From the NCBI GenBank assembly GCA_028819435.1, contig JAPPLK010000003.1, forward strand, positions 21,110 to 85,109: DNA of 64,000 nucleotides, read 5' to 3'. The translations under genes were made by a program, and so were the position numbers. The stretch is from Nitrospira sp. (lineage in GTDB: Bacteria; Nitrospirota; Nitrospiria; Nitrospirales; UBA8639). A model generated the notes under the pieces. It made no database searches and was not told the origin of the DNA. It saw nothing but the letters and a program-made list of their open reading frames with translations. How positions within the stretch are numbered: position 1 is the stretch's first letter; each line of letters begins with the position of its first letter. Shown here in pieces: positions 20,834 through 34,594 of this stretch.

Positions 20834-21835
20834 ATGAAAAAAAATATTTCTTCACTATTGATGCTCGTCATTGTCATCTTTGTGATGGCTCCAGGCTGGG
20901 CCAAGGCACACTCGGAGGGGTTTTACATCAGTAGTGACATTGGCCTCAACGTCGCTTCGGGAATTGATACCACCGGACGCAGCAACGATCGCGCTAGCGT
21001 GTGCGATGAGTACATTAATCCAATGTACGATCAGGTCGAAAGGAGTACGGCAAGTGATGCTTCAGGAAATGCGTACAGCGATTATAACTGCACCGGTTCT
21101 AATCGTGGCGCAACGGGCGACTGGAAGAACAGTTTCGACAGTGCGACGGGCATTCTGGCCGGAGCGGCGGTGGGCTACAGCTTTGCAAAGCAAAATCCGA
21201 ACAGCCCATTGGGCGGTCTTCGCGTGGAATTGGAATACTTCTATCGGCAATCGAAATATGATCAGACGTCCGACGTTGGTAGTGCATCAGGTGAGAGCGA
21301 GGACAAACTCGCGCAGGAACTTGTGCAGACGTACGATCGGATAGGCAGCATGGATTCGCACAATATCTTCGCGAACGTGTATTACGACTTCGCCAACACC
21401 AGCAGGTTCACGCCGTATATCGGGATTGGCGGTGGTCTCGGGGTTACCAACATGGAGTATGGAAGCCTCTGGGCGAGGAACAGCCAGGCGAGCAGGATCA
21501 CGACTGGTGCGGGGTTACCCAATGCCAGCCAAATCCAGAATAATCTCGCCAGTACGGCCAGTGTTGAGGACACCATGCTCAGCGACACGCTCTGGGGGTT
21601 CCAGTTCCTGTTCGGGGTGGATTACGCGATGACGGAAAACATGTCGCTGGGACTCAAGGGGCGCTACGTCATGTTTGACTCCTTCGATAGTGGTGACGGG
21701 AGTCTCGTTTGGGATCCGCTACGGGGTCACCGACCGAATCTACGGCTGGACGGAAGCGAACCCGTATCGGGCGCAGTCAGCACCAACAACATCCAATTTT
21801 TCGGCATCAGCCTGAACATGAAGTATCATTTCTAG
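20834..21835 (+). CDS. Outer-membrane beta-barrel protein, paralog 1
   Basis: Signal peptide, FYISSDIGLNVASGID, NTSRFTPYIGIGGGLG, terminal SLNMKYHF (C-terminal Phe); RBS AAAGGAG. Confidence 0.85.
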   Translation: MKKNISSLLMLVIVIFVMAPGWAKAHSEGFYISSDIGLNVASGIDTTGRSNDRASVCDEYINPMYDQVERSTASDASGNAYSDYNCTGSNRGATGDWKNSFDSATGILAGAAVGYSFAKQNPNSPLGGLRVELEYFYRQSKYDQTSDVGSASGESEDKLAQELVQTYDRIGSMDSHNIFANVYYDFANTSRFTPYIGIGGGLGVTNMEYGSLWARNSQASRITTGAGLPNASQIQNNLASTASVEDTMLSDTLWGFQFLFGVDYAMTENMSLGLKGRYVMFDSFDSGDGSLVWDPLRGHRPNLRLDGSEPVSGAVSTNNIQFFGISLNMKYHF

Positions 21836-31450: not shown

Positions 31451-31709
31451 GTCACTATCTTTTGTTATTCCATTCATCAAGACCCACTTGAGACAAAGAT
31501 TGAACCTCTGCTAGAACCTGCGAGGATGACCATCGGAAACGGAAACGACCACCGTGCTATCCGGGAGTTTGATAGATCGGTCTCATATGTACTTAACAAG
31601 CGCCGTTTATTGACTTCAAAAATGCCTTACTATAAAATCCATTGCACTGTAAAATATTTAAGACCAAATCATACAGTGATATTTTATTTATGAAAGGAGA
31701 GATGGCAAC

Positions 31710-32656
31710 ATGAAAAAAACCTTATTCATGCTGTTGGTGACGGCATTCGTGGTCTTTTCAGGCCAGGTATTGGCCAAGGATGGGTTATACATGGGGATGG
31801 ACTTGGGCGTGGCCGTTGCCCCTGACATGGACATCAAGACCGGGGGCTTGGATGATTGGTCAACTGACGGGAATGGCACTCGATGCGACGCCACTATTAA
31901 CCCGGATCGATTGCAGGGGGGGCCTGTACCAATGATCCAGTCGCCTGGGGTCCAGCGACTGAGTCGTTTGATGGCGGCTCAGGGATTCTGGCGGGACTGG
32001 CCGTGGGGTATCGCTTGGGCAGCTTCAGGGTCGAGGGTGAATATTTCTATCGCGGTACCCGGTATGGCAGCACGGCTGAACCCAACTTTGATGGCTGGGT
32101 ACCCAGTAGTAGTCGGGAATATGGGGGCGGCGGGGCTATGCAGGAATATGGGGGCGGTGCCGAGGATGCCGTCGATAATCTGATGTCGCACAATTTCTTT
32201 GCCAACTTGTACTACGATTATCGCACGGACTCGAAGTTCACTCCGTATGCGGGCTTTGGCATCGGATTCGCCCAAGTGTCAGTCCAATATCGAACGCGGT
32301 GGCAGCGCTCCAGGAACGCCGACCATATCAGCGTTTTCGACAGAAACGAACCGGGAGGCGAGTTGAATCAACGATTAGCAGGTGCGTTAACGCATGACGA
32401 GGCTACCATGTCGGATACGATGTTCGGATATCAGGCGTTGGCTGGCGTGGATTATCAGGTCAGCGAGCCCCTCACGATTGGGCTCAAGTTCCGGTACGCG
32501 ATGTTCGGGGACTTCGAGGACGAGTCGGTATATAAGCGGCTCCGTGGGCATGACCCTGTAGTTGGGAATCCCCCAACAATGCCCGCGACGTATTATATCA
32601 AAACGGATGACATTCAATTCTGGGGCGTGAGCCTCAACATGAAGTATCAGTTCTAA
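31710..32656 (+). pseudogene. Outer-membrane beta-barrel protein, paralog 3, frameshifted at a poly-G tract (possibly phase-variable or assembly error)
   Basis: Frame 1 gives signal peptide to DRLQGG; frame 2 continues ACTNDPVAWGPATESFDGGSGILAGLAVGYRLG...SLNMKYQF; shift lies at GGGGGGG 31916-31922. Confidence 0.85.
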
Positions 32657-32773
32657 CCTGTAGCAAGATAACGGTCAAAAACGCTGTTCCGTAGCGGTTC
32701 TCGCAAAATCGGACCCTGCTTTTAATCGTTGCCGTTGGTTGACGGCGAAAAGTACGTCGTTATACAGTACAGA

Positions 32774-32806
32774 GTGGCCGCGTCATTTATACTGTGGCGC
32801 GGCCAC
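32774..32806. terminator. GC hairpin downstream of barrel paralog 3
   Basis: GTGGCCGCG ... CGCGGCCAC perfect 9-bp stem; weak T run. Confidence 0.45.
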
Positions 32807-32839
32807 TTTGCGTTTGAGACTTCGGGACGTGTAGGAGTT

Positions 32840-32877: not shown

Positions 32878-32907
32878 GTCAATCTCAATATGAAGTATCG
32901 GTTCTGA
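32878..32907 (+). pseudogene. Vestigial C-terminus of a beta-barrel paralog (VNLNMKYRF-stop)
   Basis: GTC AAT CTC AAT ATG AAG TAT CGG TTC TGA matches the SLNMKYQF/SLNMKYHF ends of the intact paralogs; follows directly after the family C repeat. Confidence 0.7.
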
Positions 32908-32926: not shown

Positions 32927-34594
32927 ATGTTTGATATGAGATACGTGTTTATTGCTTTACTGGTTGTTTGTGCAACGGTTTCGTTTGCCCAGGCTGAACT
33001 GTTTCCGGCCTCAGGGCCTCCGGGGGTGACGGTGACGATCGGTGGGTCCGCGTTCGGGGAGTTTGTGTCGACGGCGGAGAATCGGGTGAATTTCAACGGC
33101 GTGCCCGCGTTGATTCAACTCTGGGAATCGGACCTGGTGATGGTCAAGGTGCCGCTCGGCGCCAAGAGCGGTGACGTCACCGTGTCGGGACCGAAAGGCA
33201 CCGTGGTGGCAGGCCGGTTTGCCATTCAGCAGGTGAAGATCACCAAGTTGGCGCCGCCGGAAGCGGAACCCGGCTCGGTGCTTACGATCGAGGGTGATCA
33301 TTTCGGCAATACCGCAGGATCACGCGACCCCAATACCATGTTCGGCGTGAATCGGGTGTTAGTCAACGGCATCCTGTCGGAAATCCTGAAATGGCGGCCC
33401 GGGAAGATTGACGTCAAGATCCCGGCCAACGCCAAGTCCGGTGACGTGGTCGTGCAACTGGCTTCCTCCGATCCGCTACCGGATGGGTCCTGTTGCGCAC
33501 CGGTCAAATATGCCGAGAGTAATCGCATGCCGGTTTCCTTGATCCCCAGTATTTCGTTTGCGCCGAATCGAGGGCCCGTTGGAACCAAGGTCGTGCTGAG
33601 CGGTCAACAGTTCGGTGACGCCAAAGGGCCGAATGATGCGATTACGATCGGCGGCAAGCCCGTGACGATTGCCAAATGGGCTCCGCGGACCATCGTGGTC
33701 CACGTGCCGCTCAACGCCGTGAGCGGGCCCGTGACGTTTCAACAGGACGGGCGTGCGAGGACCTTGGGCCAATTCGAGTTGGTCGAACCCGGATCCGATG
33801 GGCTGTTCCCGACTCAGGGACCGATCGGCACCTTGGTGTATATCAAGGGGAAAAATTTCGGTGTATTTTCCGAAGCAGGGAGCACGGCCTATGCGTTCGA
33901 TTTCGATCCCGGTCAGAACCGTGTGGAAATTGGCGGGGTTCCGGCCATTATTCACCGATGGCAGGATAACGAAATCAACGTGTGGGTGCCCTATAGCGCC
34001 AAGTCCGGTCCCGTTGTCGTGAAGCGGGGCGGTACAATTCCCAACCCCGATGGGACCTGTTGTGCCAAGCAGGACGTCGTCGACTTGGAAGTGGGCTCAT
34101 TTACCGTGCAGATGCCGAAGGTCACGTCCTACTCTCCAAAGGAAGCCGGTATCGATGAGATCGTGACGTTGAAAGGCAAAGGGTTTGGCGAATTTCTGAA
34201 AATCGCGGAGGCGACGCGCCTGGAATTGAATACTGATGCCCATGATTGGAAGAACTATCGACTGGGGCCCGACGTCTCACGCACGGAAGTGCTGGTGAAC
34301 GGGGTCGCAGCCGTCGTGGTCTCCTGGAAGGATACCGAAATCAAGGTTCAGGTGCCCAGGCGGCACGTGTTCGGGTTCGGGCATCCCGAAGGGTTTTACG
34401 TTGATCCCACTGAAGGGGAAATCGTCGTGCGTCGCGGGTCATGGGATTTACTCAAGAATGGCCGGTGCTGTTCCCGGAAGCAGTGGCAGAGCGCCGTGGC
34501 AGGCGAATTCAAGATTCTGCCGCGTGGATTGCCCCACAAGGAATTTTTCTACGATTACACGCAAGAACCTTGGAGAACCGACCAGGCACCGTGA
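32927..34594 (+). CDS. IPT/TIG-domain repeat protein, exported
   Basis: Signal peptide; repeated PxxGPxGTxVxLxGxxFG...NRVxxNGVPAxIxxWxxxxIxVxVPxxAxSGxVxV units. Confidence 0.85.
   Translation: MFDMRYVFIALLVVCATVSFAQAELFPASGPPGVTVTIGGSAFGEFVSTAENRVNFNGVPALIQLWESDLVMVKVPLGAKSGDVTVSGPKGTVVAGRFAIQQVKITKLAPPEAEPGSVLTIEGDHFGNTAGSRDPNTMFGVNRVLVNGILSEILKWRPGKIDVKIPANAKSGDVVVQLASSDPLPDGSCCAPVKYAESNRMPVSLIPSISFAPNRGPVGTKVVLSGQQFGDAKGPNDAITIGGKPVTIAKWAPRTIVVHVPLNAVSGPVTFQQDGRARTLGQFELVEPGSDGLFPTQGPIGTLVYIKGKNFGVFSEAGSTAYAFDFDPGQNRVEIGGVPAIIHRWQDNEINVWVPYSAKSGPVVVKRGGTIPNPDGTCCAKQDVVDLEVGSFTVQMPKVTSYSPKEAGIDEIVTLKGKGFGEFLKIAEATRLELNTDAHDWKNYRLGPDVSRTEVLVNGVAAVVVSWKDTEIKVQVPRRHVFGFGHPEGFYVDPTEGEIVVRRGSWDLLKNGRCCSRKQWQSAVAGEFKILPRGLPHKEFFYDYTQEPWRTDQAP

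Follow-up and report, generated by a model that had tools for sequence, protein, structure and literature searches.

A gene for a predicted outer-membrane barrel begins at position 31710 of the 64,000-nt stretch of DNA analysed here (the window) and is interrupted at a run of seven G. The window (55.3% GC) corresponds to positions 21110-85109 of contig C96, in a 2.62-Mb metagenome-assembled genome (MAG) of 114 contigs. The features of the locus are as follows:

31610-31638, plus strand: sigma-70-like promoter match (TTGACT-17-TAAAAT, 10/12), apparently intact, from a consensus scan only
31694-31698, plus strand: AGGAG, a motif resembling a ribosome-binding site 5' of the ATG at 31710, by direct reading
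31710-32183, plus strand: ORF as it stands (157 aa) with signal peptide, strand 1, the start of loop 1 and about 86 out-of-frame codons, from direct reading and from orthologue homology up to the tract
31901-32656, plus strand: downstream open frame (251 codons) with the remainder of loop 1, strands 2-8 and the C-terminal SLNMKYQF, from homology, PF02462/PF13505 and an orthologue model
31916-31922, plus strand: GGGGGGG, with the frame break here or at most 2 nt away according to the sequence and orthologue spacing; read in the zero frame (CAG GGG GGG CCT) it is a -1 slippery-type heptamer
31927-32010, plus strand: RNA hairpin predicted immediately 3' of the heptamer (-41.3 kcal/mol, z -2.8), from folding
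32770-32810, plus strand: terminator-like inverted repeat 3' of the barrel gene, from a sequence scan
32884-32907, plus strand: scar reading L-N-M-K-Y-R-F-stop, what remains of the C-terminus of another barrel copy, since lost, from comparison with the relatives G001 and G005

The next gene, at 32927 and 3' of both the terminator and the scar, is one that we take to be IPT/TIG-like. Both G001 and G005 have scars like that at 32884-32907 in the same position, 5' of the corresponding gene. The genus of the MAG appears to match the 'Ca. Nitrosymbion' / GTDB bin75 type (Nitrospirales), which is sponge-associated, with a size of 2.36 Mbp and 56.9% GC (PMC11812461).

In the frame of the ATG at 31710, homology ends at ...NPDRLQ, and it picks up again at C.NDP.AWGP, in a different forward frame. 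This downstream frame runs from 31901 to the stop codon at 32654-32656 without an internal stop. The TGC codon at 31884 and the TGT codon at 31925 are 41 nt apart, compared with 42, 45 or 48 nt in nine intact orthologues, and the two cysteines that they encode, which flank the break, are invariant in the family and located in loop 1 (C65 and C80 of the orthologue L057). The departure from a multiple of three bears out the claim of an earlier note on this sequence that a barrel paralogue is broken at the G run. By alignment, the slip can be placed within 31917-31924, where six of the eight bases belong to that run. The earlier note was also right in its arithmetic that a tract of either 8 G or 5 G would yield a single ORF, as well as in expecting a full-length product about as long as the paralogues at 20834 (333 aa) and 23464 (317 aa from an ATG start). 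The region 31925-32653 is open and conserved, with no further lesions. With everything outside the tract intact and conserved, the break should be recent, reversible or artefactual.

The C-terminal part of the barrel (32003-32653) matches PF02462 (42.2 bits with a cut-off of 21, E 1e-10) and PF13505 (29.0 bits with a cut-off of 28.7, E 1e-6); the NCBIfam profile matches were far below cut-off. The intact orthologue L057 was modelled from a 13-sequence alignment (mean pLDDT 77), giving an N-terminal helix and eight long strands, and the Foldseek matches of this model were NspA (1p4t, TMt 0.78), OmpA-long (9fzd_A, 0.70) and Legionella porin III (9nh2_A, 0.56). The family is thus predicted, from profiles and model together, to form an Opacity/OmpA-like eight-strand outer-membrane barrel located at the cell surface. 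It resembles the small eight-strand barrels (PF02462, PF13505, NspA and the transmembrane domain of OmpA) in having a signal peptide and, in the orthologue, eight predicted strands, but differs from them in its length (about 315 aa), its long loops and the two invariant cysteines of loop 1, and the identity over the structural alignments is only 10-16%. Unlike those barrels, the window copy is broken after strand 1, the only strand held by its own ORF; as the break falls between strands 1 and 2, in loop 1, the present ORF would be unable to encode a barrel. Seven members of the family were detected in the genome, and the other six have no internal stop. Among the 60 relatives searched, barrel homologues were restricted to the MAG's own genus.

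Intact single ORFs without lesion are found in G001, G003 (two copies), G005, G010, G011, G012, G013 and L062. The earlier note had proposed looking for the tract in relatives, and none of these nine orthologues has a 7-G tract, the longest G run in the matching segment being 2-6 (6 in G001, mostly 2-3). Two further relatives carry damaged copies. The orthologue of G007 (L042, minus strand) carries a one-base insertion (AACTTATG) and a one-base deletion (TTTGCAAC), and the coding sequence separating the two is conserved, representing either recent decay or consensus errors, and G006 (L046, contig C111) has a barrel fragment with neither signal peptide nor barrel end, followed by an unrelated ORF. 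A second barrel lies directly downstream in G001 and G005 and is missing in the window. In this comparison, copies of the family are often gained and lost, and the locus is in the course of repeated loss elsewhere in the genus.

The downstream part of the window copy is 74-78% identical to its nearest orthologues, with variation mainly in the loops, and the terminal branch leading to it measures 0.093 substitutions per site. In a crude simulation with all downstream sites neutral, 2.3 stops are expected over the whole branch, with a probability of no stop of 0.09; this probability is 0.25-0.77 at distances of 0.05-0.01 (0.77 at 0.01). With no stops or lesions downstream and this low neutral probability over the whole branch, the loss, if real, would be recent, and only a very young loss is compatible with the conserved barrel sequence. 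Pairwise dN/dS over the downstream part is 0.16-0.34 for pairs including the window copy and 0.13-0.29 for other pairs, which gives no clear sign of relaxed selection on this part. Counted by codon position, the changes are 15/16/18 unpolarised and 5/6/9 when polarised with G001, and are weighted towards the loops. The earlier note's suggestion of decay holds insofar as the lesion is absent from functional orthologues, and is opposed by the lack of further lesions in about 243 downstream codons.

The barrel gene is the sole clean mid-gene frame break among about 50 window genes matched to relatives. The other candidates of the gene scan were, by inspection against four relatives, start-site differences, short terminal pieces and shadow frames, and a frameshift-rich assembly was rejected for the window on the basis of this gene-by-gene comparison. 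The 64-kb window contains only three runs of at least 7 G, so that a break inside one of them would be an unlikely coincidence. There is no enrichment of poly-G in the window; such runs are in fact rarer than in shuffled sequence (4 overlapping 7-mer matches vs about 21).

Across the genome, 140 G/C runs of at least 7 were surveyed, with the reading frame scored by codon usage. As controls, one false call was made in 3000 intact gene-interior sites, and 2159 of 3000 sham shifts were detected. Forty-six scorable runs are read through in frame (36 of 7 G and 10 longer), and frame changes were scored at three:

L146 1543-1552 (contig C74, 11042-11051): lipoprotein gene out of frame at 10 G, from the codon-usage survey
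L203 1502-1509: transposase-like gene out of frame at 8 G, from the codon-usage survey
L204 1502-1509: zinc-dehydrogenase-like gene out of frame at 8 G, from the codon-usage survey

All three are at runs of at least 8 G, where they make up 3 of the 13 scorable cases, compared with 1 in 3000 random gene-interior sites. The barrel tract itself went unscored, falling just below the threshold owing to its short upstream coding part, and its case rests on homology. As frame breaks are also found in non-surface genes, G runs are frameshift hot spots in this assembly whatever the function of the gene, a pattern that ordinary slippage mutation or consensus error would explain better than would selection for switching. 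The lipoprotein is the strongest candidate for a poly-G switch in the genome. It carries a lipobox (LSGC) and has orthologues in G013 (69% identity) and G012 (65% identity), the latter an intact single ORF, and it is without loop residues that the orthologues have. A related lipoprotein (L221, contig C89, tract 83758-83768) has 11 C on the coding strand about 100 nt 5' of its start, a position where the run length could affect transcription.

The explanation that we tentatively prefer is a null allele that arose recently by slippage in a redundant barrel gene, the genome having about seven of the family. A clean break at a G run with no other defect makes slippage at the run its likely cause. 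Replication slippage would probably be the mutational step, a one-step length change of a chance G run in the loop 1 segment being enough to inactivate the gene. The product as it stands would consist of the signal peptide, strand 1 and a nonsense tail, from which no barrel is expected, and the downstream frame has no export signal; the gene would presumably yield no functional product and be dispensable. That breaks gather at G runs is also to be expected from homopolymer consensus errors, which counts against the null allele and favours the somewhat unlikely alternative that the tract of the organism is frame-compatible and that the MAG consensus miscounts the homopolymer by one base. Such an error would also account for a barrel gene intact and conserved outside the tract and for the clustering of the assembly's frame breaks at G runs, some of them in functionally unrelated genes. 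The start of contig C5 (L134 1-72), with poly-A followed by runs of 23 and 18 C, likewise resembles, and probably is, a read artefact. Against such an error stand the 46 scorable runs that pass in frame in the genome and the single clean break among the window genes; at 7 bases, the run is also short for a miscall in a consensus built from deep short reads. It is very unlikely that the full barrel is made from the present sequence by recoding on G GGG GGG, through either a -1 ribosomal shift or slippage of the transcript. The run does lie in the X XXX XXX register, from which a shift of -1 leads precisely into the conserved frame (GCC TGT), the downstream frame is still conserved, and the 3' hairpin is stable and stronger than in the nine orthologues. 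It is, however, inside conserved coding sequence, and orthologue segments in the same register also fold (-27.9 to -37.6 kcal/mol); its z-score of -2.8 holds for 31923-32010 and weakens to -1.9 for the longer segment 31880-32000, where the tract itself is paired. The orthologues are single ORFs, none of which has or needs such a site, and an Rfam search gave no match. As in dnaX-type -1 programmed frameshifting, a correctly placed heptamer is followed by a 3' hairpin; unlike in that system, the site is all G, is not conserved and shows no sign of selection for the signal. To our knowledge, all-G heptamers are not established as efficient sites in bacteria.

The earlier note had put the gene forward as a candidate for phase variation, in which slipped-strand mispairing at the tract would flip the barrel between ON and OFF within the population. 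The slippage half of this proposal stands, as the G run is the likely cause of the break, while a contingency locus is not borne out by a tract of 7 G that is absent from the orthologues, and we consider switching unlikely. It would suit a predicted surface barrel from a paralogous family with variable loops, broken cleanly at a G run with promoter and remainder intact, in a genome where a lipoprotein is broken at 10 G. The barrel also bears a distant, family-level likeness to Neisseria Opa (PF02462). Opa switching relies on CTCTT repeats in the leader region, and no pentamer repeat of this type is present in the window barrel gene. Tracts of 5'-CTTCT-3' are among those listed for Neisseria, for whose phasomes the PhasomeIt criterion sets a cut-off of at least 9 for poly-G/C (PMC5953494), so the present tract falls below it; in the meningococcus, tracts of at least 8 are predominantly variable (PMC5084427). 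Frame switching by poly-G is described for the meningococcal haemoglobin receptors (PMC3786947). As in those proteins (HmbR, HpuAB), a coding G run here sets the frame of a predicted surface protein, but it has only 7 G and is not conserved among relatives. Further results against switching are that the other six paralogues are uninterrupted, that the window shows no enrichment of long G runs, that orthologues elsewhere have been lost through other lesions and that G-run breaks are also present in the transposase-like and dehydrogenase-like genes. Homopolymer error and decay, which the earlier note had named as alternatives, are at least as likely. The choice among a null allele, an assembly error and one phase of a switch is beyond a single consensus sequence, which serves as a reminder that homopolymer switching is not establishable from one MAG consensus.

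More doubtful still is the wider proposal that sponge-associated Nitrospirales vary their surface proteins by G-run slippage, with the barrel at 31710 (7 G) and the lipoprotein on contig C74 (10 G) as contingency loci. If true, an uncultured nitrite-oxidising symbiont of animals would be added to the organisms with poly-G phase variation. Tract lengths varying within the host would make this an example of phase variation at the surface of a nitrifying sponge symbiont, which is testable in existing metagenome reads; without such variation, the locus would be an unremarkable case of a redundant barrel family recently losing one copy. The analysis also looked for another assembly of this species: the contig search returned other species only, the viral contigs returned nothing and the genus gave only 14 species representatives. 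A close barrel homologue (L062, 52% identity) is contained in a record titled uncultured Gammaproteobacteria bacterium, which may reflect either transfer or a mislabelled MAG.
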